DNA of 28,709 nt from a virus, in the IMG/VR virus record IMGVR_UViG_3300031963_000713, positions 1 through 28,709 of that record, one strand, 5' to 3'. Shown here piece by piece: positions 5,464-25,960 of this stretch. The stretch's first letter is position 1; the number at the start of each line of letters is the position of its first letter. The position numbers and the translations under genes were made by a program. Under the pieces are notes generated by a model that was given only the letters and a program-made list of their open reading frames with translations, ran no database searches and had not been told where the DNA came from.

Positions 5464-7179
5464 TTATAAATTTTTTAAATTTATTGAAACGCAGCGGCCC
5501 GACATACCAGCGGCAAAACGCGTATTACTTCGCCTTGATGCGCCTTTGAGCCTTAATAAGATAGTATTCCATGATATTTGCCAAGGCGTATTATTTAAAA
5601 CTTTTTTTACAAAAACCGAATTATTTAGTATCAATAGGTCATCGCCAATGACACGAATACCTAAACGCATTAACCGTTCGTTTGCTTCGGCCTGTGATGG
5701 TTTAACCGATGGCTGATAATTATGAGCGCATTCTACAAGTTCGCCAACTGTTTTTGTGCCTACATAATTTTCGGCTTCAATGCGTATTTCTTGCGATAGT
5801 ATCTGTTGCAAACATCTTTGTTCATCGGTCAAATCTTCTTTGTCTTCTTCATACTTGCGCATGTCCAAAATGGCTGCTGCTTCTTCTAATGCTATTTCAA
5901 CCGTTACCGGGTCATCGTGCAGCGTATGCCACCAACCGCCCATAAGCGCCCCGAACTGGTCACCAACTGCTCTATCTTCAGTTATAAGCGATACGGCGTG
6001 TGTAAATAGCTTAATGCTTTTTTGTATGTTATCCGCCAAGTTTAGCATTCGCGCCTGAAAACGTGGGCCGAAGCCTTCAAATATTATTTTATTCTTTAGC
6101 TTTTCAACTTCATTAAATTGTTTCGGGTCCGCTAATTTTTTTAGTTCCAAAACACAAAAACGGCGCTTATCAGAATCGTTAACTAACTGCGGGTTAATAG
6201 ATACGAATAAAAAACAGCTACGTACAAAATAATCAATAGCTTTGCCATCTTTGCCGCCTTTGGCAATTGCAGGGCTTTTTTCACTACTTGCGGCCCGTGC
6301 TAATCCTATAATTTCTTGCATACGCTGTGCCGCGCGTTCATCATTGCCTTCGCCTTCATCAATTGTAACAGGTAGTGCATCACTATTTAATTTTTGCCTT
6401 ACCGCTGGTTCCGTTGCCGCCGTGCCCTGTACACTAACTGCAATGTTACCGATAACTTCATTAACTATATTTTCTAAAACCCATGATTTACCGTTACCGC
6501 GCGGGCCTGTTATCCAAACGTGGGGCCGCCATTTTAAAATACCGCTAATCGGTGCCAATGCTAACCAACCCGATAATAGTATTGCATCGGCTTTAGTTTG
6601 CCAATTTAATTTATTTAAAATCTTTGGTATCATACCAGCTTCAGTAGGTAACAGCGGCGCTTCAATAGGCATATCAATAGCTTTATTATAAACATAGCTG
6701 TATTTAGTATCTAAGCCGCCTAAATTGTATCGCTTTTTGTCCTGTATCAGTTGTTGACCTGCATGAAATACAACGCCGTTTTTTTCTTGCCATGCACCGC
6801 GACCGCGTATGTTTTCAGTATTATAAAAACCTACATGATTGCAAAAATTTATAAGATAATCAGCCGCCGTAGTTACATCGTAATTACTATTATCGCGATT
6901 TGGAAATGATAGCAACCAAAATTCTAAAGGCGCAATGCTCAATAAATTAGCCTTGTTTATTGTAGCAGCTTTGTACTTTACTATTGACATAGTTGAACGT
7001 ATGTAAAAATAATAAAGCATTTGCCCATCTTCAGTTGCCCAACCTAAGGGGCGAAAATATCCCCCTATAAAACCTTTTTTATCGGTTTCAGGCGCTGATG
7101 CTGCAGGGCGTTCGGCTTTAGGTTTCTTTGTGTTTTGTTTGGATTTTTGTTCCCAGTCAATTGGTTTGTCCTGTTTCAT
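5464..7179 (-). CDS. P-loop ATPase, primase/helicase-like (DUF927-type)
   Basis: This 571-aa protein has a Walker A motif, ITGPRGNGKSW (Gly225-Ser232), a Walker B motif, LPVTIDEGEG (Asp274-Glu275), and a sensor-like FVSINPQ (about 326-331) followed by Arg339-Arg340. The N-terminal part (FIGGYFRPLGW, YYFYIRS, then APLEFWLLSFP) resembles the region before the ATPase domain in DUF927/SF3-type phage and plasmid helicases. It probably unwinds DNA or loads the replisome at the phage origin. It starts 4 bases inside the end of the methyltransferase gene. No zinc-finger primase or TOPRIM motif is visible, so calling it a full primase is not justified. Confidence 0.75.
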   Translation of the reverse strand: MKQDKPIDWEQKSKQNTKKPKAERPAASAPETDKKGFIGGYFRPLGWATEDGQMLYYFYIRSTMSIVKYKAATINKANLLSIAPLEFWLLSFPNRDNSNYDVTTAADYLINFCNHVGFYNTENIRGRGAWQEKNGVVFHAGQQLIQDKKRYNLGGLDTKYSYVYNKAIDMPIEAPLLPTEAGMIPKILNKLNWQTKADAILLSGWLALAPISGILKWRPHVWITGPRGNGKSWVLENIVNEVIGNIAVSVQGTAATEPAVRQKLNSDALPVTIDEGEGNDERAAQRMQEIIGLARAASSEKSPAIAKGGKDGKAIDYFVRSCFLFVSINPQLVNDSDKRRFCVLELKKLADPKQFNEVEKLKNKIIFEGFGPRFQARMLNLADNIQKSIKLFTHAVSLITEDRAVGDQFGALMGGWWHTLHDDPVTVEIALEEAAAILDMRKYEEDKEDLTDEQRCLQQILSQEIRIEAENYVGTKTVGELVECAHNYQPSVKPSQAEANERLMRLGIRVIGDDLLILNNSVFVKKVLNNTPWQISWNTILLRLKGASRRSNTRFAAGMSGRCVSINLKNL

Positions 7180-8258
7180 TGTTCAAGTTTAGATAGCCAT
7201 TGTAAATAAATTTGTTTTGCTATTTGTGCAGTCATTACAGGCGGAACACTCATTCCAATTAGGTAACTATATTGCACACCAGTAAAATTATAATCTTGCG
7301 GATATGAGCCAATATAGCAACTTTCTATTTTGTTTGGCTTCCTGTATTCATCAAATAAATAAATCACATCTGAATTGCTTGTGTAAGTCATTGGAACAAT
7401 ATCTGAATAAAGATATTTATTTGTAAAGCATCTTTCAGCACCTTCAACTCTTTTTATTGTATCGCAAAAACTTTCATCTCCTTTTTGCCTATTCTGCCAA
7501 TACTCATACATCTTACCTTGTGAAGCAGGTCTATCATCAACACCAGCTTGATAAAATTCTCCAAAGTTTATTTGTGCCTCATCAAATTCAAGTTTTAATT
7601 TAGGCAATACCGTAAACATATCAACTTGCTCTATAAATTGTTTTGCCAAATCTTTTCGCAAAGCTATAAAAAACACACGTTCCCTACGTTGTGGCACACC
7701 CATTTTAGAAGCATCCAAAAGCCAATGTTGAACGTAATAACCTGCCAAATCAAATTCCCTATAAATTTGCCTTACATAGTTTTTTGCTTTACCTAAAAGC
7801 AATCCTTTTACATTTTCAGCTATAACAACTTTTGGTTGTAGCTTTTTTGCTAAATCAATAAAATCAAAAAATAGATTATCTAAAACTTGTTTAGCTTGAC
7901 CTTCTCTAAATTTCTTTTCTTTTCCCCAATCTTTTTCTCTATTTCCTGCAATTGAAAAACTGCTACAAGGCGGTGAGCCATCTAAAATATCAAGTTCATA
8001 TAATTCTTGTGGCAAATCAGTTCTTAATTTAAATGTTTGAATAGGCTGTAAATAAGCATATTTTGGGTTGTGGTTAGCTTTATATGCTTCCATCATTTTA
8101 GGGTCAATTTCATTGCATCCTAATACATCAAAACCTGCAAGTTTATAACCCATAGTTGAACCACCACCACAAGCAAAACAACTAAATACTTTACCTTTAT
8201 CTTTAGTAAAATTTGCATCTTTTAAAGTCCATTTATATGGAAAATTATGTTCTTTCAT
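7176..8258 (-). CDS. DNA (cytosine-5) methyltransferase
   Basis: This 360-aa protein carries the full C5-MTase motif set: motif I FSCFACGGGSTMGYKLAGF (25-43), motif IV GSPPCSSFS with catalytic Cys98, motif VI AENVKGLL (Glu148), motif VIII PQRRERVFFIA (about 189-199) and motif X YSYLIGMSVPPVM near the C-terminus. It would use S-adenosylmethionine to methylate cytosine in a target set by the region around 205-310. No restriction enzyme gene lies next to it, so it is an orphan that may protect phage DNA from host restriction. The gene is much poorer in CpG than both flanks, suggesting separate acquisition. Ends overlap both neighbours by 4 bases. Confidence 0.95.
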   Translation of the reverse strand: MKEHNFPYKWTLKDANFTKDKGKVFSCFACGGGSTMGYKLAGFDVLGCNEIDPKMMEAYKANHNPKYAYLQPIQTFKLRTDLPQELYELDILDGSPPCSSFSIAGNREKDWGKEKKFREGQAKQVLDNLFFDFIDLAKKLQPKVVIAENVKGLLLGKAKNYVRQIYREFDLAGYYVQHWLLDASKMGVPQRRERVFFIALRKDLAKQFIEQVDMFTVLPKLKLEFDEAQINFGEFYQAGVDDRPASQGKMYEYWQNRQKGDESFCDTIKRVEGAERCFTNKYLYSDIVPMTYTSNSDVIYLFDEYRKPNKIESCYIGSYPQDYNFTGVQYSYLIGMSVPPVMTAQIAKQIYLQWLSKLEQ

Positions 8259-8866
8259 TGTCTTATAATTTGCTTACCTACATTAAATTTTTTAATATTC
8301 TGCATCAGTTCGCGCACCGTTTCAAAAACATCATCGGTATCAGCGATAATCGTATTTATCATATTTATGCCTACTTTTATTAGTTCGCGCTGCACATGCT
8401 TTTGAATTAGTATCCTTGCATGGTATTCTAAATTTGCAGCACTTGCAACCCGATTAGTTAGTTCAGCTAAATAAGCTGGACCGCCGCAACGATATTTTAA
8501 TTTTTCAGCCACCGTAATTATGTCGACTACTTCAACAGATTGGCAAAGTTCAAAAATTAACTTGTGATTATCAAAATAAAAATGTTCGGGGCTTAAAAAA
8601 TTAACTTTATCGCGGGCGTTATTGTCAACTAAGATAGCACCTAAAATAACCTGTTCTAAGTCTTTGCTATGTGGGAACGTAATTTGTTTTTCAAAAAAAC
8701 TTTGTTCTTTTTCTTCAAGTGCTATAATGATATTTTGCAGCGTTAAAAGTTGCCGCTCTTTTAGTTGCCTATAATTTTGCCGCTTTGCATCATCCTTAAT
8801 ATAAGCATCCATTTTTAATGCTTCATCTTTTAGTTCAGATAGTAGGTTTTGTGCTTCGGTTGTCAT
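8255..8866 (-). CDS. Stand-alone DnaB N-terminal-domain protein
   Basis: This 203-aa protein matches only the N-terminal domain of replicative helicase DnaB. The match covers about residues 65-165, with LEQVILGAILVDNN, LSPEHFYFDNHKLIFE and the GGPAYLAELTNRVASAAN segment. The RecA-like helicase domain is absent, and the frame ends cleanly about 35 residues after the domain. The N-terminal 60 residues form a charged coiled coil. In DnaB this domain makes the hexamer collar and binds primase. Here it may recruit host or phage primase/helicase, or modulate the host helicase. It overlaps the genes on both sides by 4 bases within the replication module. Confidence 0.8.
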   Translation of the reverse strand: MTTEAQNLLSELKDEALKMDAYIKDDAKRQNYRQLKERQLLTLQNIIIALEEKEQSFFEKQITFPHSKDLEQVILGAILVDNNARDKVNFLSPEHFYFDNHKLIFELCQSVEVVDIITVAEKLKYRCGGPAYLAELTNRVASAANLEYHARILIQKHVQRELIKVGINMINTIIADTDDVFETVRELMQNIKKFNVGKQIIRQ

Positions 8867-10377: not shown

Positions 10378-11043
10378 TTATTCAATTATTTCCCATGCTT
10401 TATTGAAATCATTATCTTTAAATGCTTCAGCAAGACCAGTAATTTGAGCAAGTCTTAAAACTTCATCAGCTTCCATGCCCAATTCTTTAGCTATTTTTTC
10501 ATCATTCCAATTTTTTCTTTTTAGATAAATTACCATATCAGACATTGATTCAACTTTGTGTTTACCCCTTGCTCTATTATGTCTTACAGTTGCAGCCATT
10601 CTATCAGATTTATCAGTTCTATCTGATTTAATTTTTACTATTGGCAAATATCCAAATATTCTTTTTTTAATAATCTCACTTTCTTTACCAACTCTATTTC
10701 TATGGAATCCATCAACAACTTCATATAAATTTTCATGTTCCATTGTAACTATAGGTTGAGTATAACCATCTGAATTTATTGAATGTACTAATAATTCCAT
10801 TTCAGGTGGCGCTACAGAATTAGGGTTATAATCATTAGCATGTATATTTTCATTTTTTACCCATATTACACAATCAACAGGCTCATTGTTAAAGGGTGAT
10901 ATTTCATGCATTTTTAATTTTATTGAATTTAAAGAATTGACTAAACTATCAATATTATCCTTTCCTAATGAAGATATAAGTTCAATAATTTTATTAGTCA
11001 AATCATTGTTTTCGGTCGATTCTAAATCATCAAATAGTGTCAT
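10378..11043 (-). CDS. ParB-like nuclease-fold protein (IbrB-like)
   Basis: Starting at ATG 11043, the protein has 221 aa. The frame is open to 11067, but 11043 gives an ATGA overlap with the upstream GNAT gene. Its centre is a ParB/Srx-fold domain: VIWVKNENIHANDYNPN (59-75), then IVTMEHENLYEVVDGFHRNR with the GFHR motif (112-115). It is followed by a helix-turn-helix-like region (WNDEKIAKELGMEADEVLRL, about 179-198). ParB-fold proteins bind DNA and can use CTP or act as nucleases. Pairing with a PAPS-reductase-like gene matches the IbrA/IbrB pair known from E. coli and many phages. The gene is CpG-poor. Function in phage is unknown. Confidence 0.8.
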   Translation of the reverse strand: MTLFDDLESTENNDLTNKIIELISSLGKDNIDSLVNSLNSIKLKMHEISPFNNEPVDCVIWVKNENIHANDYNPNSVAPPEMELLVHSINSDGYTQPIVTMEHENLYEVVDGFHRNRVGKESEIIKKRIFGYLPIVKIKSDRTDKSDRMAATVRHNRARGKHKVESMSDMVIYLKRKNWNDEKIAKELGMEADEVLRLAQITGLAEAFKDNDFNKAWEIIE

Positions 11044-11435
11044 AATTTTAATTTTAAATGTGAACAAATTTTATATTTTTTAATTTCTATATAGCCAAAT
11101 TTTAAATATATTGGCAATGCAAAAACAGAAGATATTACATTTATATATTTTATGTACTTAGGCAATTTATCAACAAAAATTATATGTAGTTTTTTAAAAA
11201 TGCCTTTATTACGATATTCTTTATAAATGTAGCAATATTTTAAATTACAAATTTCTTTTTTAAATTCATAGCTTAAAAAACCAATACAAATGTTATCTAT
11301 GCAACAAATTATATATTTTGAATTATTATTATGAAATATAGGTTCTCCAAGTTCTTTAAAAACATTTTTATCTAAAGAAAATTTAGATATGTGATTTTTA
11401 ACATCTTCAAAATTTTCTATGAAAATAAATTCCAT
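11040..11435 (-). CDS. GNAT-family acetyltransferase
   Basis: This 131-aa protein is GNAT-like. IGFLSYEF gives the beta-4 strand, and KYCYIYKEYRNKGIFKKL (about 67-83) is motif A with RNKGIF as the acetyl-CoA pyrophosphate loop, although the usual second Gly/Ala is Phe80. The ending VFALPIYLKFGYIEIKKYK matches motif B. The protein is very rich in Lys, Ile and Tyr. It lies between the PAPS-reductase-like gene (19-base overlap) and the ParB-like gene (ATGA overlap), so it is probably part of the same cassette. The substrate is unknown; it could be an amine on a protein, a metabolite or a modified base. Confidence 0.75.
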   Translation of the reverse strand: MEFIFIENFEDVKNHISKFSLDKNVFKELGEPIFHNNNSKYIICCIDNICIGFLSYEFKKEICNLKYCYIYKEYRNKGIFKKLHIIFVDKLPKYIKYINVISSVFALPIYLKFGYIEIKKYKICSHLKLKL

Positions 11436-12619
11436 TTTTCTCTATTTTTTTTCATTAACTTTAAATATTTTTCATAATTAGATGATTTTGTTATACTAAA
11501 ACCTAATGTTCTGCACCAATAGTCATTTTTAAGTAAGCATTTACAAATCAATTTCCATGAAGGAACTTTATCAAAAATATCTATTTCAACTTCATCATGT
11601 ATTCCATTTTCATAACCTCTTTGTTTATACCAATATAAATATTTTGCAATTTTATTTTTATAATGTTCTGCCGTTTTAGGTGGCATAGTATTTATAATAT
11701 GATTTGAAAATGATTCCCATGTATGACCATTAGGTAAACTTATAGTTCTATTGCCTAAAATATTACCTTTTTGTTTTCCATATTCATTAACAGTATTAGC
11801 ACCATTTACTCTACATACAATTTTCGCCCATGTTTCAGGTTCTATAATTTGATACAACCATAAACCACTTCTTGCTGTATCACCAAATGGTTCATCTATT
11901 CGCATTTGATTTATTGTTAATCCAGCTTGATACATTCTATCGTAAAGTTTATTGTAAATCATTTTATATCTTGAATTGTATATCCAAATATCCTCAGTTC
12001 GCCAATCATATATTGGATATACTGCCCAATTTTTATTTACTATATTAGTGGTATATTGTTTATTATCAAATTTATTTTTTTCCATTGCAATGGCTCTAAA
12101 TCTATTTAAAGATTCTTGAGTTCTTATTCCGATGAAATTTGCACATTTTTCACCTTGACTATACCATTCTGCAAATAAAGGCGTAAATTCTTCAAATGTA
12201 ATGTTTTCAAAATAAAATGGAAAATAACTTTTTGACTTAATAGCTATTTTTGGTTTTTCTCTAACCCATAAATTCTTTTTATCATCATCCCAGCACTTCC
12301 ATGTTGGTTCAATCATAGAACAAGCATTATCGGTTAAAATTGGTAAACATATCCAATAAGGCTCAATATATTCTGAATACATATTATAAATATTCAAACA
12401 ATGATTTTCAGTAATTTTAAATTGACATTCCCAATCAATAAAAAACATACAAACCTTTCTATTTCTTTTTATAGCTTCATCCATTACTAAATGAGTTAAA
12501 ACTGTACTATCTTTTCCACCTGAAAATGATATTATAATTTTATTAAAATTATCAAATGTCCAAGATATTCTTTGTTTTGCAGCTTCCAAAACATCAATTT
12601 CTAAATAATTTCTAAGCAT
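11417..12619 (-). CDS. PAPS-reductase-like protein, DUF3440/IbrA type
   Basis: This 400-aa protein has the PP-loop ATP pyrophosphatase motif IIISFSGGKDSTVLTHLV (28-45; SGGKDS at 33-38) and FIDWECQ soon after, typical of PAPS reductase and DndC relatives. IGIRTQESLNRFRAI and AVYPIYDWRTEDIWIY are hallmarks of the family. The long C-terminal part (PNGHTWESFSNHI, then PPKTAEHYKNKI) fits the DUF3440/IbrA subfamily. PP-loop enzymes adenylate a substrate before sulfur or nucleophile transfer. IbrA in E. coli acts with the ParB-like IbrB to activate eib genes, but its chemistry is unsettled. The start overlaps the 130-aa gene by 19 bases. Confidence 0.88.
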   Translation of the reverse strand: MLRNYLEIDVLEAAKQRISWTFDNFNKIIISFSGGKDSTVLTHLVMDEAIKRNRKVCMFFIDWECQFKITENHCLNIYNMYSEYIEPYWICLPILTDNACSMIEPTWKCWDDDKKNLWVREKPKIAIKSKSYFPFYFENITFEEFTPLFAEWYSQGEKCANFIGIRTQESLNRFRAIAMEKNKFDNKQYTTNIVNKNWAVYPIYDWRTEDIWIYNSRYKMIYNKLYDRMYQAGLTINQMRIDEPFGDTARSGLWLYQIIEPETWAKIVCRVNGANTVNEYGKQKGNILGNRTISLPNGHTWESFSNHIINTMPPKTAEHYKNKIAKYLYWYKQRGYENGIHDEVEIDIFDKVPSWKLICKCLLKNDYWCRTLGFSITKSSNYEKYLKLMKKNREKWNLFS

Positions 12620-12993
12620 AATTGTATTGATTTATTAAATTTACTTCTATATATTTTAACAATTTCATCAGCTTTATCATTAGCTAATTTTTGAACATCA
12701 GAATCTAAATTATTCCATGCTATTCTTACTGATTTTTCATTAGATTTATATTTAAAATTGCATGCAGCAGCACCCAAATAAGCCCTTGGATTTATATCTA
12801 AATTTGTTAAATTATGCTCTATACAATATTTCCAAGTGTTAATCATTTGAAACATTGTATCATAAAATAATTTACTATCAGATAATAAATTTTTACAATT
12901 TTCAATATGCAATTCTTCGTTATCAATTTCTTTTTTGTATAATCCATTTTTATAATCTTCCCATAATTCATGGGTATGATAAATTTGTTTCAT
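12601..12993 (-). CDS. Conserved partner of IbrA-like gene, unknown function
   Basis: This 130-aa protein begins MKQIYHTHELWEDYKNGLYK. Its conserved-looking core is NLTNLDINPRAYLGAAACNF, followed by SVRIAWNNLDSDVQKLANDK. The 'AxLGxAAC' and 'TRxAWxxL' type pattern recalls a small phage protein often placed beside PAPS-reductase-like genes, recognised from memory. It is helical, with no membrane segment. It begins 2 bases after the helicase stop and overlaps the start of the IbrA-like gene by 19 bases. CpG is scarce, as in the rest of the cassette. I give no function. Confidence 0.7.
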   Translation of the reverse strand: MKQIYHTHELWEDYKNGLYKKEIDNEELHIENCKNLLSDSKLFYDTMFQMINTWKYCIEHNLTNLDINPRAYLGAAACNFKYKSNEKSVRIAWNNLDSDVQKLANDKADEIVKIYRSKFNKSIQLCLEII

Positions 12994-14754: not shown

Positions 14755-15510
14755 ATGACAAACCAAGAGTATCACAGAAAAACTGACTTCATTAGCAAGT
14801 CACTTTTAGACTTAGTACATAAGTCACCAGCGCACTACAAAGCCTATATAGAAGGTGAAAAACAAGCGCCAACATCAGCCATGAATTTAGGGTCATTAGT
14901 TCATAGCGTTGTATTTGACCAAAACAATTACGCCGTTATGCCCGAATGCGACCGCCGTACTAAAGAAGGTAAAGCTATCTACGAATCGTTTTTAGCTGAA
15001 TCTGAAGGTAAAGAATTATTCGTGTCGGCTAAAGATTACGAATTAGCACTAAACATTCGAAACGCTGTTTTAGCACATCCGAAGGCGGCGTTACTTTTAG
15101 AACACGGCCAAGCGGAACTACCTATATTTGGAAAAATCGCAGAACTTGACGCAAAGTGCAAAGTAGATTTTCTAAACACTAAGTACAATGTTTGTATAGA
15201 CCTTAAAACAACGGTCAGTTCTGCACCGGGCGAATTTTCTAAAAGCATCTACAATTACCGTTATCATGTCCAAGCGGCGTTTTACATGGACCTAACAAAG
15301 GCCGAACGCTTTATATTTATAGCAGTAGAAAAGGAAGCGCCGTTTAATGTAGAACTTTACGAATTAGATAATGATGCTATCGAACGCGGCCGACAAGAAT
15401 ATTTAGCCGATATCGAAACACTTAAAAAATGCAAAGAATCAAATAATTTTCACGGCTATACAACTGATAACAAAATACATATTATTTCATTGCCTACATG
15501 GGCTAAATAA
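14755..15510 (+). CDS. RecE/exonuclease VIII-like PD-(D/E)XK exonuclease
   Basis: This 251-aa protein starts at ATG 14755, giving MTNQEYHRKTDFISKS. The frame is open upstream to 14680, but that would cross the promoter. LLDLVHKSPAHYKAYIEG and NLGSLVHSVVFD (His50) are typical of the RecE/phage exonuclease (DUF3799) family. The active site is KVDFL (Asp138), then CIDLKTT (Asp149-x-Lys151), then HVQAAFYMD (Gln173). It would resect dsDNA ends 5' to 3' and hand ssDNA to the annealing protein encoded 30 bases downstream. Together they form a two-component phage recombination system. Confidence 0.88.
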   Translation: MTNQEYHRKTDFISKSLLDLVHKSPAHYKAYIEGEKQAPTSAMNLGSLVHSVVFDQNNYAVMPECDRRTKEGKAIYESFLAESEGKELFVSAKDYELALNIRNAVLAHPKAALLLEHGQAELPIFGKIAELDAKCKVDFLNTKYNVCIDLKTTVSSAPGEFSKSIYNYRYHVQAAFYMDLTKAERFIFIAVEKEAPFNVELYELDNDAIERGRQEYLADIETLKKCKESNNFHGYTTDNKIHIISLPTWAK

Positions 15511-15540
15511 CTAATTCATCACTTTATAATAACTTTAATC

Positions 15541-16074
15541 ATGCAACAATTAACAAAACTGCCAACACTTCAAGAACTATTAGTAGAAAATGAAGATAGC
15601 CTAAAGCAAAACGCGCTAACAGTATTATTGAATCAAGACCCGCCCGCTAAGTGGTTAGTTCAGCATCCGATGATTCGCGATTATAGATACATACCTATTG
15701 AGAAAATAGAATATCTTTTAACGCGCATTTTCGGGAACTTTAACGTAGAAATACGCGGCACTCAGATAGTAGCTAATTCAGTTGTTGTAACTGTAAGGCT
15801 GCATGTAAATAACCCGATAAGCGGCGAACCAATGTGGCAAGATGGCATAGGCGCTGCACCGATACAAACAGATAAGGGCGCTGGTGCTACTGATTGGAAT
15901 GCCGTAAAAACCGATGGTGTGCAAAAAGCTGCACCCGCCGCCGAAACATACGCCGTTAAAGATGCAGCCGAAAAGTTTGGTAAAATATTCGGGCGCGATG
16001 TTAGCCGTAAAAGTTCAATGAATTATACTGACTTGCTGAAAAAATCAAGTTTAAATGATGAATTAGAAAAATAA
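15541..16074 (+). CDS. Single-strand annealing protein, Rad52-like
   Basis: This 177-aa protein follows the RecE-like exonuclease by 30 bases. YRYIPIEKIEYLLTRIFG, then VVVTVRLHVNNPISGEPMWQ, and the segment AETYAVKDAAEKFGKIFGRD resemble Rad52-type annealing proteins, with the last in the place of the conserved 'TDAxKRAxRxFG' helix. Such proteins anneal complementary strands during phage recombination and repair. The C-terminus is helical and basic to acidic (LLKKSSLNDELEK). The Rad52-like call is from these motifs and from context; a RecT/Red-beta-like family cannot be ruled out. Confidence 0.75.
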   Translation: MQQLTKLPTLQELLVENEDSLKQNALTVLLNQDPPAKWLVQHPMIRDYRYIPIEKIEYLLTRIFGNFNVEIRGTQIVANSVVVTVRLHVNNPISGEPMWQDGIGAAPIQTDKGAGATDWNAVKTDGVQKAAPAAETYAVKDAAEKFGKIFGRDVSRKSSMNYTDLLKKSSLNDELEK

Positions 16075-16091: not shown

Positions 16092-16185
16092 ATGTTCTGC
16101 AACCACAGAAAGAACTAAAAGATATTTAAAGCCCTGAATGATATAGGTCGTGGTTGCCCTATTGATTTCGGGGCTTAGTTTTTTT
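16092..16185 (+). ncRNA. Structured RNA with predicted kissing loop
   Basis: About 94 nt lie between the annealing protein and the CoiA-like gene. Hairpin 1 is UUCUG (16095-16099), loop CAACCA, CAGAA (16106-16110). The terminal structure has a 10-bp outer stem (16129-16138 with 16167-16176, one G-U pair), an inner 5-bp stem AUAGG/CCUAU, and a 10-nt loop containing UGGUUG, exactly complementary to the hairpin-1 loop. The complement extends to 8 nt (GCAACCAC with GUGGUUGC). Seven U residues follow. It may be a phage small RNA or a transcription-attenuating leader of the next gene. It is non-coding in all frames by eye and not recognised as a known class. Confidence 0.6.
16129..16185 (+). terminator. 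Terminator at the end of the structured RNA
   Basis: The 10-bp stem AAGCCCUGAA/UUCGGGGCUU, with its inner stem-loop, is followed by AG and seven T residues (16179-16185). It can end either the exonuclease/annealing operon or a separate small RNA. It lies 12 bases before the next start codon, which suggests attenuation. Confidence 0.75.
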
Positions 16186-16197
16186 AAAAAATTTACA

Positions 16198-16992
16198 ATG
16201 CATGAAATAAAATATGCCTATGCTAAAAATGAGCAAAATATATATGTTTTTATAAATGACATAAACCAAAATAATAGATATGAATTTTATTATTTACTGT
16301 CAGATAAAGGCGATAAAATACAAATGATACCAGTAATAAATGGTGAAAGGCAAAAACATTTTAGGACTAAATCAGATGCAGTTGCAGTAGGTATGTCAGC
16401 CGAACACTTAAATTTGATTGCTAAGTTATGCGATGAAAAACAATTTTATTGTAAAGACTTAGATTTGCATGTTACTGCAAAACGCGCTAAAGATGAACAT
16501 ACTTTAGAAGATATAAACAGGCGTGTTGATGTTGCATACTTTGATGATAATGATGATTTTTTATGCGGCATTGAAGTAGTACACACAAATGACATAAATT
16601 ATAGTAAATTAAAAGATATACACCAATCGGATTATTTAATATTTAAAGTTTATACTTATGCTCCAGAAAGATTTAAATTTGTTAATAATACAAAAATTGA
16701 AACAGAAACAAATCGACAAGTTATTAGAGGATTCGAAGAAGAAATCCAAAAATCAAAAACAGATGGAATTGGAGAAGATGAAAAATTATTATACATACTT
16801 AAAGAAGATTCACGAAAGTTATTTAAAGAAATATATCCAATGCGAAACAAGCACAATATCGGATTGTCTTTCAATGATTCACTCAGACAATTTAAAGTTA
16901 GACTGCAACAAACTGAGGGCGAGGGAGGCGAACTTATTAGAAACATTGAACGGCTTACAAAACAGATAAATCAATTTCATACAACCCAATGA
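16198..16992 (+). CDS. CoiA-like putative nuclease
   Basis: This 264-aa protein starts at ATG 16198; upstream codons of the open frame lie in the terminator. It resembles competence protein CoiA: a short beta-rich N-terminal part, RQKHFRTKSD (His54-Phe-Arg), then SAEHLNLIAKL in place of the E-x3-H-x3-K helix. The nuclease-like core is NRRVDVAYFDDNDDFLCGIE followed by VVHTN (Asp111, Glu126). The usual CPxCG zinc ribbon is absent (YYLLSDKGDK instead). The C-terminal 100 residues are charged coiled coil. CoiA-type proteins are PD-(D/E)XK-like and act on recombination intermediates, which suits the recombination neighbours. Its stop overlaps the HNH-like start (ATGA). Confidence 0.6.
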   Translation: MHEIKYAYAKNEQNIYVFINDINQNNRYEFYYLLSDKGDKIQMIPVINGERQKHFRTKSDAVAVGMSAEHLNLIAKLCDEKQFYCKDLDLHVTAKRAKDEHTLEDINRRVDVAYFDDNDDFLCGIEVVHTNDINYSKLKDIHQSDYLIFKVYTYAPERFKFVNNTKIETETNRQVIRGFEEEIQKSKTDGIGEDEKLLYILKEDSRKLFKEIYPMRNKHNIGLSFNDSLRQFKVRLQQTEGEGGELIRNIERLTKQINQFHTTQ

Positions 16993-17258
16993 AACTACTT
17001 CAAATATTCAAACGCAGCCTTTGCGCTGACTACATTATGTTAGATGATTCTGATTATGATAAATGCCAAAACCACCGATGGCATTATAAAAAAAACAGGG
17101 TTATTAGTAATACTGGCGTTCTATTACATCATGTATTATTCCCGCTTAAAAACCATGATTTAAAGTACACTATGACTTTTTTAGATGGCAACCCGTTGAA
17201 CTATCAAAAAGAAAATATTGAATTTTCACATCGTAAAGTTTTAAAGTCTGAAAACTAA
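16989..17258 (+). CDS. Degenerate HNH-type protein
   Basis: This 89-aa protein reads like the HNH/AP2-type small homing nucleases: YIMLDDSDYDKCQNHRWHYK, then LLHHVLFPLKNHD, then FLDGNPLNYQKENIEF. The usual signature 'D-H-x-DGN-x-LDN-xx-NL' is altered, with TFLDGN in place of DHxDGN. One catalytic His is therefore missing, although His-His (LLHH) is present earlier. It is probably inactive or a DNA-binding remnant. It starts inside the end of the CoiA-like gene (ATGA) and is followed by a terminator. Confidence 0.6.
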   Translation: MKLLQIFKRSLCADYIMLDDSDYDKCQNHRWHYKKNRVISNTGVLLHHVLFPLKNHDLKYTMTFLDGNPLNYQKENIEFSHRKVLKSEN

Positions 17259-17291
17259 TACTTACTTTTGCCTTAACTGCGGTTTGCCGCT

Positions 17292-17323
17292 AACCGCTGT
17301 TCAACAAGTGCAGCGGTTTTTTT
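17292..17323 (+). terminator. Rho-independent terminator with competing hairpin
   Basis: An 8-bp stem AACCGCTG (17292-17299)/CAGCGGTT (17311-17318) with an 11-nt loop is followed by T residues to 17323. An upstream GCGGTT (17279-17284) can pair with AACCGC (17292-17297), which would disrupt the terminator. It ends the rightward recombination operon before the repeat-rich region. Confidence 0.8.
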
Positions 17324-17331
17324 ATTTGAAA

Positions 17332-17603
17332 TGTTAACACACGTTACACAGCATGTAACACTTAAACGATTGATTCTTAACTTTGTTACGCTGTTAACAC
17401 CTGTTACGGGGTTTTTCTCACATATACGCATACACATGCGTAGTTAAACTTAAAATACATATGTGTGTAGAATATAGTGTAACAGGTGTAAACATGTAAC
17501 ATCTTATGTATATCAATAAGTTATGTGTTACACTTAATGTAACAACTGTTAACAATAATAATAATAATATAAATAATAATACTAATAATAATATAGATAT
17601 AGT
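17332..17603. repeat. Iteron-like cluster, dyad and AT-rich tract (candidate origin or packaging site)
   Basis: Twelve related motifs occur between 17332 and 17554. TGTTAACA lies at 17332, 17392 and 17547. TGTAACA or TGTTACA forms lie at 17342, 17354, 17384, 17402, 17478, 17495, 17526 and 17538, and TGTAAACA at 17487. CTGTTAACACCTGTTAC (17391-17407) is nearly the inverted copy of TGTAACAGGTGTAAACA (17478-17494). Between them lies TACGCAT-ACAC-ATGCGTA (17425-17442). An AAT-repeat tract (17553-17603) follows. No gene is visible. The layout fits an iteron-type replication origin with an unwinding region; a terminase recognition site or repressor operator array are alternatives. Confidence 0.7.
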
Positions 17604-17705
17604 CTTAAAACGTATTTAAACGGCTTTTTAAGGCATTTTTATATTAAAGTGGTGTATAGATATCAAAAGTTATTAAAAGTTTCTTAAAACGAAAAATATA
17701 AACAA

Positions 17706-18125
17706 ATGGGTAGGCATTTAAAATATAAAACAACTGAAGAATTGCAATCTGCTATAAATTATTATTTCAGACGTTGTGATTCGAATCAAGAAGAATTTAT
17801 TAGTAAAGATGGCGAAACTTTTACTAAAACAGTTCCCGTGCCTTATACAGTTGAAGGTATTTGCGAAGTATTAGGTATAACAAGACAAACACTTTTAAAC
17901 TACGAAAAAGCAGAGGGTTATGAAGTTTTTTTTGACACAATAGAAAAGGCAAAAGCAAAAGTTTTAACTAATACAATGGAACGTGCGTTGTCAGGTAAGA
18001 ATAATCCTGCCGTTGCTATATTTTCGCTTGTTAATAATTATGGTTACAAAAACGCAAATCATAAGGAAACAACCGAGGACGATAAAAACATTAACATAAA
18101 CATTCAGTACCCACCTGATAAATAG
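17706..18125 (+). CDS. Terminase small subunit
   Basis: This 139-aa protein begins MGRHLKYKTTEELQSAINYYF and has VPYTVEGICEVLGITRQTLL (an HTH) followed by FFDTIEKAKAKV and GKNNPAVAIFSLVNNYGYKN. This is the DNA-packaging small-terminase family of the P22 gp3/Terminase_5-like type. It recognises the packaging site and regulates the large subunit. It lies right after the repeat region and its stop (TAG) overlaps the GTG start of the large subunit. The family assignment is confident. Confidence 0.9.
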   Translation: MGRHLKYKTTEELQSAINYYFRRCDSNQEEFISKDGETFTKTVPVPYTVEGICEVLGITRQTLLNYEKAEGYEVFFDTIEKAKAKVLTNTMERALSGKNNPAVAIFSLVNNYGYKNANHKETTEDDKNININIQYPPDK

Positions 18126-23268: not shown

Positions 23269-25948
23269 AGACGTTTATAGTTTAGAATTTAACAGTTCAC
23301 AGTTTCAGACTGAAATCAATTCAGCGATTCAAAGTATTGACGAACTAAATAACGCCATGGCCGAAGGCGTTGATGTTGCCGATGATTTAGAATCAGCACA
23401 GGCTAACTTAGTTAACGTGTTGAATACTGAAGCTAAGGGCGTTGAACAGTTAAATCAAAAACGCGATACTTTAGTTAAAACACAAAAAGCCGTTAACGCC
23501 GAATCAAAAGCTGGTGTAGCAGTTGGTAAGCAGTTGGATGCAACAAATAAACAAATAGCAGTTAGCACAGGTCAGGCGGCAACACAGCAAAGAGGATTTG
23601 CAAGTTCTTTAGTGCAAGGTGCTAGAAATTTAAATTCAATGCGCCGCGCTGGTATGATGCTTGGTAATTTATTTAGAGTTATTGGTGGTATAAATCCATT
23701 TGGTTTACTATTGACTGCTATACCTGCTTTAATATCATATTTAACAAGTGCAACAAGTGCGCAAAATTCTTTTAATGAAGCTGCTGAATCTGCAATTGAT
23801 ACTTATGCAAAAGAAAAAGTTGCTTTAGATGATTTGTTTGTATCATTAACTGATGTTAATTTGAAAGGTGAAGATAGAAAAGCTGTTATTGATGAAATAA
23901 ATAATCAATATGGTCAATATTTACCTAATCTATTAACTGAGGCTAGTACAGCCGAAGATGTTGCAGCCGCTTATGATTTAGTAAATCAAGCATTGATTAG
24001 AAAAGCTATAACACAAGCTAAAACACAAGCATTAGAAGAAGCTACTGCTAAACTTTTGAAGGGTCAAATGGCTTCTTTAAAAGAAATTGAAGAAATGGAA
24101 AAAATAATTCAAGAACAAAAAGATAAAGGTCAAAAACCATCAAAAAATGCTTTAGCTAGAGTAAAACAAGAAAGAGAAGCAATAAAAATATATCAACAAC
24201 AATATCAGGATTCATTAAAAATAATTGACAAAGCATCACAAGACTTAGAAAAAACATTATTAGCTAGTTCAACAAATACAACTAAAAATACAAATAACAA
24301 TACTAATAAAGTTCGTACTTATACACATACAAGTCAAAAACAAACAGTAAAACAAACTAAAGGTTTTTATAAAGAATTGCAAAAATTAGCAGTAGAACAA
24401 TTTAATAAAGCTGTTAACAATATTAAAAATGAAGAAAAAGCTAGAATAAAAGGAATACAAGATGCTATAAAAGCAACTGAAGACCTTTTAAATTATCAAA
24501 TATCAATAACTCAAGATGGTTCAATTGAGCGTGTAAATGCTGAAACTCAATATACTGAAGTATTAACTGATTTATATAAAAGATATGCTAAAGAACTCGG
24601 AATGTCTGAAACTCAAATAAATCAATTTATTGCAGATAGACTTAAAAATCGTGCTGAAACATACAACGAATATTATAACACAATATCTGATTTAAAAGCT
24701 AATTCAATTGAAACAGAACTTAATCAAGAGTTATTAGCATTAGAGCAAGAACGAAATAAAAAACTTGAAGCAGCTTTTTTAAATGTAGATTTGCAAGAAA
24801 AAATAGATGAAGAATACAATGCAAAAAGATTAGTATTAGAAGCTAAAGCTAATCAAAAAATATTAGATAGTAGGATACAATTTTTACAAAAGTCTAGAGA
24901 TTTATTATTTGCAGCAGGTGATACAAAAGCAGTATCAGAACTTGACAAACAAATATCTGATTTAAAATTAAAATATGAAGAATTAAACAAAGCTACTATT
25001 GATGCTAATAAAAGCATTTTAAAAGGAGCAGTTGATACATGGGAAAAAACGACTAAAGAAACAGAAGAAGGTACTAAAACACTTACAGATAAGCAAAAAG
25101 AACTTATCGACCAATCGGCACAACTAATCCAAGGCGTTTCCGATAATGTTTTCAATGTTCTTAACGCACAAGTGCAAGCCTATATAGAAGGGCTTGACAA
25201 GGCAATAGATAAAAGCAAATCGGCATTGGATGAAATACGCACAAATAGTGAAAATTACAACGCGCGCCAATTAGAAATAGAAAAGGAACGTTTAGAAAAA
25301 TTAGAAGCCGAACGGGCGCGGGCGGTCGAACGTGAAAAAACATTAGCACAGGTACAAATAGCTATTAACGCGGCTATTGCCATTTCAAAGGCGGCAGCTG
25401 AAGGTGGTGGAATTGCATCGGCTGTTACTATTGCATTGACTTTAGCTTCATTGGTTGCAGGTTTAGCACAGGCGCGTTCGGCCGCTGGTAATGCGTTTTA
25501 TCACGGTGTTGAATACTTAGAACGTGGCAATAATAAAGCGGGCCGTGATACAATCCCTGCAATGCTAAATGAAGGCGAACGCGTTATTACAACCGATACT
25601 AATAATAAATATTGGGATGTACTTAGCGCCGTACACAATAACAGAATACCAGCCGATGTACTTAATACATTTTCTAAAGCATATCAGCAAGGCGGCATTA
25701 AAAACGCTTTAGGTGCGTTTGGTGATAACGTATCACTTAGTAGTGAGTTAGGTCAAAAATCTATATTTGTAAACGTAGCGCAAACATACGGCGGACTTGA
25801 AAATAGATTAGAACGCATTGAAAATGTTTTAACTGAATTGCCTAAGTACATGCCACGAACTACAGTTAGCGCCAACGCAAATGGGATTTTTAGAATTGTA
25901 GAACAAAGACAAGCGCGTAAAAACTTTTCACGTAATTGGTCAAAATAA
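23255..25948 (+). CDS. Tape measure protein
   Basis: This 897-aa protein is mostly coiled coil with two hydrophobic stretches (about 147-165 and 702-742). It has the C-terminal signature GRDTIPAMLNEGERVIT (about 763-779), typical of tape measure proteins. It sets tail length and helps DNA entry through the host envelope. It overlaps the gpT-like frame upstream. Residues about 134-610 come from a stretch with very few CpG dinucleotides and AGA/GCA/GCT-type codons. The ends use CGC/GCG/GCC-type codons, with sharp transitions near 23655 and 25085, suggesting internal exchange. Confidence 0.92.
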   Translation: MAEIKDVYSLEFNSSQFQTEINSAIQSIDELNNAMAEGVDVADDLESAQANLVNVLNTEAKGVEQLNQKRDTLVKTQKAVNAESKAGVAVGKQLDATNKQIAVSTGQAATQQRGFASSLVQGARNLNSMRRAGMMLGNLFRVIGGINPFGLLLTAIPALISYLTSATSAQNSFNEAAESAIDTYAKEKVALDDLFVSLTDVNLKGEDRKAVIDEINNQYGQYLPNLLTEASTAEDVAAAYDLVNQALIRKAITQAKTQALEEATAKLLKGQMASLKEIEEMEKIIQEQKDKGQKPSKNALARVKQEREAIKIYQQQYQDSLKIIDKASQDLEKTLLASSTNTTKNTNNNTNKVRTYTHTSQKQTVKQTKGFYKELQKLAVEQFNKAVNNIKNEEKARIKGIQDAIKATEDLLNYQISITQDGSIERVNAETQYTEVLTDLYKRYAKELGMSETQINQFIADRLKNRAETYNEYYNTISDLKANSIETELNQELLALEQERNKKLEAAFLNVDLQEKIDEEYNAKRLVLEAKANQKILDSRIQFLQKSRDLLFAAGDTKAVSELDKQISDLKLKYEELNKATIDANKSILKGAVDTWEKTTKETEEGTKTLTDKQKELIDQSAQLIQGVSDNVFNVLNAQVQAYIEGLDKAIDKSKSALDEIRTNSENYNARQLEIEKERLEKLEAERARAVEREKTLAQVQIAINAAIAISKAAAEGGGIASAVTIALTLASLVAGLAQARSAAGNAFYHGVEYLERGNNKAGRDTIPAMLNEGERVITTDTNNKYWDVLSAVHNNRIPADVLNTFSKAYQQGGIKNALGAFGDNVSLSSELGQKSIFVNVAQTYGGLENRLERIENVLTELPKYMPRTTVSANANGIFRIVEQRQARKNFSRNWSK

Positions 25949-25960
25949 AAATATAACACT

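Follow-up and report, generated by a model that had tools for sequence, protein, structure and literature searches.

We know of no described replication origin for most virulent tailed phages, and the closest systems with which a candidate can be compared are those of P4 and of the staphylococcal islands. P4 has two cis regions (ori and crr) with 6 and 5+5 annotated type-1 repeats (TGTTCACC), in both orientations but without exact mirror order or annotated IHF sites. In the Staphylococcus aureus pathogenicity islands (SaPIs), Rep uses its C-terminal domain to bind iterons that lie immediately past its own gene, apparently as two hexamers, and the related Cch2 protein of the staphylococcal cassette chromosome mec (SCCmec) forms hexamers and dodecamers (PMC7581432). 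Here we analyse a twelve-site array of short repeats in the IMG/VR virus record IMGVR_UViG_3300031963_000713, whose whole stretch of 28,709 bases, without end repeats, is referred to as the window. The array (17332-17554) probably is the replication origin of a virulent Bacteroidetes phage, and of the kind that P4 and the SaPIs use with a self-loading primase-helicase; judging from sequence comparisons, we would put the chance of this at roughly three in four. Like the P4 regions it has short repeats in both orientations, and its heptamer TGTTACA can be set beside the P4 repeat, but it is a single 12-site mirror with IHF-consensus sites. From the SaPI and SCCmec systems it differs in its setting (virulent tailed Bacteroidetes phages, not staphylococcal islands), in its iteron word, in having an IHF-consensus site in each arm and in lying 10 kb from the helicase gene. 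What is new relative to these origins is thus the occurrence in virulent Bacteroidetes phages, the strict mirror symmetry and the IHF-consensus site per arm.

The array covers 223 bp of intergenic DNA and is made of TGTTACA/TGTAACA heptamers and of the 8-bp forms TGTTAACA and TGTAAACA. A preliminary description, drawn from the letters alone, had reported a twelve-copy cluster with these variants, and all twelve sites are there: TGTTAACA starts at 17332, 17392 and 17547, TGTAAACA at 17487, and the other eight are heptamers, two with a final G and one with an initial C. If TGTTACA-like sites are coded F, TGTAACA-like sites R and the 8-bp forms P, the order reads PFRFPFRPRFRP, which is its own mirror image. 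The sites are grouped in four triads (T1-T2-centre-T3-T4), each arm having two triads and six sites. On the + strand, the left outer triad T1 (17332-17360, P F R) comprises TGTTAACA at 17332-17339, CGTTACA at 17342-17348 and TGTAACA at 17354-17360, and its mirror T4 (17526-17554, F R P) comprises TGTTACA, TGTAACA and TGTTAACA; the left inner triad T2 (17384-17408, F P F) reads TGTTACG, TGTTAACA, TGTTACG, and its mirror T3 (17478-17501, R P R) reads TGTAACA, TGTAAACA, TGTAACA, both also on the + strand. The midpoints of the six mirrored pairs fall at 17443, 17443, 17443, 17442.5, 17443 and 17443, a symmetry reached with P = 5e-5 in shuffles of the observed gaps. The mirror order is therefore stronger than the nested symmetry first described (all midpoints within 17443.0 ± 0.5), but the dyad around which that symmetry had been drawn is not its centre: TACGCAT-ACAC-ATGCGTA, an alternating purine/pyrimidine element at 17425-17442, is centred on 17433.5, about 9 bp off the array centre, and its sequence is not conserved among relatives. 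The arms are separated by an AT-rich central region of 69 bp (17409-17477, symmetry centre 17443), the presumed melting site. The AAT-repeat tract seen earlier after the array is also present (17554-17592, + strand), on the side of the small terminase gene, TerS; it is found in those relatives inspected as well and may act as a second unwinding element.

Could such a cluster be a by-product of a common word? Window-wide, TGTWACA is at chance level (8 copies in 28.7 kb against 5.9 expected), yet five of the eight copies lie within 191 bp, and three of the four copies of TGTTAACA in the window are inside the array. A scan for mirrored words with no preset motif returned the array as the sole locus in the window and nothing in 5 shuffles. 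GC skew, proposed earlier as a check, follows gene direction and is for this reason uninformative on the origin, with no informative third-position asymmetry, and a text search with the array motif gave primers only.

The preliminary description did not mention another feature of the array, the match to an E. coli-type IHF consensus (WATCARNNNNTTR) in the spacer between the two triads of each arm. The left site (AATCAATCGTTTA, 17363-17375, - strand) lies in the T1/T2 spacer and the right site (TATCAATAAGTTA, 17511-17523, + strand) in the T3/T4 spacer, both as exact matches. The consensus is at chance level over the window (7 found, 6.25 expected), but when the spacers of the window array are shuffled, both arms carry it at mirrored places with a frequency of 5e-5.

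Is this anatomy kept in relatives? A search with the large terminase subunit, TerL, gave 80 viral contigs with 91-100% identity and one contig of a Bacteroidetes metagenome-assembled genome, and 59 distinct complete arrays could be extracted from these relatives, which are freshwater Bacteroidetes phages. Exactly 12 sites are present in 49 of the 59, answering the call for a motif count in relatives, and all 49 have mirrored orientations with midpoints spread over at most 1 bp. The centre spacing of these twelve-site arrays ranges from 62 to 85 bp and the central sequence is poorly conserved, whereas conservation is higher at iteron positions (0.92) than at the others (0.74; circular-shift P=0.005). 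The outer triads are PFR/FRP in 44 of the 49 and RRR/FFF in five, and the inner P/P pair is replaced by F/R in twenty arrays, both arms changing jointly. The IHF-consensus site is found on the left in 52/59 arrays, on the right in 58/59 and on both sides in 51/59. A conserved mirror with co-changing arms and IHF-consensus sites is, at the sequence level, the signature of a single nucleoprotein complex with two-fold symmetry.

Which protein would build this complex? The proposed initiator is the phage's own primase-helicase (5464-7179, - strand), which matches phrog_35358 (E=1.1e-96), has a Walker A region and shows a weak DUF5906 match (E=0.007). The link between this protein and mirrored arrays was examined independently of the motif in seven named phages of ~39-53 kb, chosen only because their primase is 28-35% identical to that of the window, by searching stretches of 320 bp for hexamers of whatever sequence that occur three or more times in each orientation. 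Six of the seven have mirrored arrays, built from GTTAC-like words. In four of these six the primase gene is adjacent (~0.3 kb or less), much as crr lies directly downstream of the P4 primase-helicase gene alpha: S-H1 (17680-17937, CGTTAG/AACGGT), Acinetobacter phage Acjo_20 (3076-3432, GTTACA), KLER1-1 (48793-49061, CTTACA) and Bdellovibrio phage phi1422 (14007-14312, GGTAACA in the order RRRFRRFFRFFF), where the array begins 11 bp past the primase gene. The array of Serratia phage MQ-4 (41325-41673, GTAACA/CGTTAC) is 1.6 kb and that of ZRG1 (25597-25958, CGTTAG) 4.6 kb from the primase gene, and the same scan gave no array above noise in PY223. As a positive control the scan recovers ori and crr of P4 and nothing else; a scan of the same kind found mirrored arrays in 0/6 TerL relatives. 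Together with the conservation, this control and the co-location with primase genes support the iteron-type origin suggested in the preliminary description.

Pattern scans with the array word itself find same-word arrays in unrelated phages, some beside TerS and others beside primase-helicases of the DUF5906, D5, VapE, Prim-Pol, phrog_35358 and DUF927 types. In one contig (L300) the immediate neighbour of the array is a helicase with DUF927 and HTH_56 domains, as in Cch and SaPI Rep, a further likeness to the staphylococcal systems. Per record, co-occurrence with DUF5906 is modest (14/50 arrays vs 5/50 controls), many of the contigs being fragments. An open reading frame first taken for a primase in contig L265 proved to be TerL. 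The idea that GTAACA is a universal phage word was dropped: when six or more sites, two or more of them on each strand, are required, the scrambled word GACAAT gives arrays in 41/120 contigs compared with 58/114 for GTAACA, and at a threshold of at least 8 sites in 13 contigs compared with 40. Since the scrambled control also finds mirrored arrays, word identity alone proves nothing and it is the architecture that defines the class; the mirrored architecture appears, from sequence comparison, to be common with other iteron words. Mirror-symmetric GACAAT arrays were noted in L390, L402, L404, L415, L418, L420, L424, L477, L489 and L494.

A PDB sequence search with the primase was uninformative, so what does its predicted structure offer? 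The AlphaFold model of residues 165-571 has a predicted local distance difference test score (pLDDT) of 73.3, while the full-length AlphaFold2 model is poorer (50.8). Against a viral fold library, the 165-571 model matches DUF927/Toprim phage primases with E values down to 9e-6 after exclusion of two close homologues. Its matches in the PDB are weak, all above E=0.01 (the best at 0.015-0.1), and include, at E 0.02-0.3, PriRep1 with double-stranded DNA (7pds), vaccinia D5 and monkeypox virus (MPXV) E5; the weak top match of the poor full-length model is SaPIBov1 Rep (8tch), a faint likeness to the SaPI and SCCmec systems. The matches are consistent with, though not proof of, a superfamily 3 (SF3)-type self-loading helicase. 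In the proposed mechanism, the primase-helicase would bind TGTTACA-type sites, with the six sites of each mirrored arm seeding one hexamer, and an IHF/HU-type host protein would bend each arm between its triads. The two facing hexamers would then melt the 69-bp centre, the adjoining AAT tract or both, and depart in opposite directions, firing the origin bidirectionally, and the host polymerase would follow after melting. We also note that a contig of 46416 bases (IMGVR_UViG_3300044675_004667; L534, L561) encodes the primase twice, once towards each end, with 97% and 86% identity to the window protein; it has either undergone a true duplication or been assembled as a chimera.

Several observations weigh against an origin served by this protein, the weak PDB matches among them. 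Eight further primase relatives, mostly 90-kb phages, scanned only within 8 kb of the primase, gave an array in one case, so the primase-array rule is not universal at this sensitivity. That case is Aeromonas phage ST4 (L517), in which 15 unannotated GCTACC/GGTAGC copies, in both orientations, lie within 300 bp (15354-15650), ~5.6 kb from the related primase gene. That unrelated phages have arrays of the same motif is in part a product of having searched with it, since a scrambled word finds mirrored arrays too. In low-power Mantel tests, the correlation of array divergence with primase divergence is weak (r=0.16, P=0.09), and that with TerL divergence is a little stronger (r=0.26, P=0.03). 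The window array also lies 10 kb from the primase gene and adjoins TerS, as it does in many contigs; adjacency to the initiator gene is a typical but non-defining trait, and P4 ori is likewise apart from alpha. Elsewhere, too, the array is often near TerS, with 13 of 15 Terminase_2 matches within ~1 kb.

This position, which in the window is 152 bp ahead of TerS, had led to the earlier suggestion of a packaging site or a terminase-regulating operator. If the array served packaging as a pac site, both arms would be bound by TerS or a partner protein, IHF would bend the DNA and the terminase would cut the centre. The plan does resemble the pac site of P1, where two hexamer clusters (hexa4 and hexa3) flank the cut and IHF binds between them. 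Contig ends scattered around the genome are also compatible with headful packaging; a cos end at the array was rejected, as the ends of the 10 long contigs are dispersed and the sequence of most of them continues across the array. We nevertheless consider a pac site unlikely. TerS falls into four classes with different recognition helices and ~45% identity, one class sharing only the C-terminal tail, and a single array type is found across all four; TerS is exchanged among members of the virus group, in which primase identity does not fall below 86%. A gene is also inserted between the array and TerS in some relatives, a methyltransferase in L033-L036 and a HAD-like gene in L020/L021. Packaging or control of the terminase is therefore not supported, the array being unchanged through TerS swaps and gene insertions. 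Further, array and TerS divergence do not covary (Mantel r=0.07, P=0.23, a low-power test), and, unlike at P1 pac, TerS can lie kilobases away: the distance is 7.2 kb for phi1422, 3 kb for ZRG1 and, measured around the circular genome, ~4 kb for Acjo_20. The TerL relatives mentioned above, none of which has a mirrored array, point in the same direction. As for TerS itself, all four classes share the C-terminal tail DDKNININIQYPP next to a TerL that is 91-100% identical, and the protein (17706-18125 in the window; also in L140 and L033-L036) is modular, joining unrelated or distant DNA-binding parts to one tail, as if the tail docked TerL while the front part was swapped.

An operator, where a repressor or activator of the phage would bind many sites in tandem and so control the late operon beginning with TerS, is still less probable. 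The array is intergenic, follows a terminator-like hairpin and lies upstream of late genes, and the phage encodes small helix-turn-helix (HTH) proteins and a sigma factor. Such control has, however, no need for two-fold symmetry over 223 bp between co-directional genes; the downstream gene differs among relatives, the array of distant phages follows the primase gene instead of preceding a TerS operon, and the HTH gene's own promoter has no clustered sites of this kind. A partition site or recombinase attachment site, of the P1 parS or attP type, is highly improbable: arm-type sites flanked by IHF sites do resemble attP and the window has a ParB-domain gene (10378-11043), but of 11 records the window virus alone has that gene, whereas the array occurs universally. 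The sequence of the array centre also lacks conservation, and the attP of a tyrosine recombinase was rejected because the integrase domain PF00589 is in 0/11 records, with 14/14 control genomes positive.

If the array is instead the phage's replication origin, what would it mean? More tentatively, and with somewhat less than even odds, the strict 6+6 iteron mirror with one IHF bend per arm may represent a widespread, unrecognised class of virulent-phage origin that pre-assembles two facing SF3-type hexamers on duplex DNA. Such a class would be the bacterial-virus counterpart of the origins of simian virus 40 (SV40) and the papillomaviruses; in each phage the primase-helicase would dictate the iteron word, and the origin could move away from the gene of that protein. 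The 6+6 plan bears on whether self-loading helicases form double hexamers on duplex DNA. Origins could also be predicted in many uncultured phages from mirrored iterons and IHF sites close to a primase-helicase of the phrog_35358, D5 or DUF927 kind, and the origin would be separated from the packaging module despite its confusing position beside TerS.

The genes of the window are arranged in two blocks. The leftward block encodes SSB, a lysozyme-like protein, the primase, a DnaB N-terminal domain, VRR-NUC and a helicase; the rightward block runs from exonuclease VIII and a Rad52-like annealase through two variable genes to the array, TerS, TerL, a metallophosphoesterase and the virion genes. 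The hairpin before the array, with its T run (17291-17325, + strand), ends the upstream operon by its sequence, and TerS (17706-18125, + strand), of the P22 gp3 type (Pfam GP3_package, E=1e-23), is context here and not a proposed binder. The interval from the annealase gene to the array (16150-17258 in the window), like its counterpart in relatives, is a hot spot of gene exchange, holding HNH-like, methyltransferase and other genes, while the adjoining array is strictly kept. A low-GC cassette (10378-12993) with the ParB-domain, acetyltransferase-like and PAPS-reductase genes occurs, among 11 records, only in the window virus. Beside the primase, a stand-alone DnaB N-terminal domain protein (8255-8866) without a helicase domain may recruit host DnaG or DnaB.
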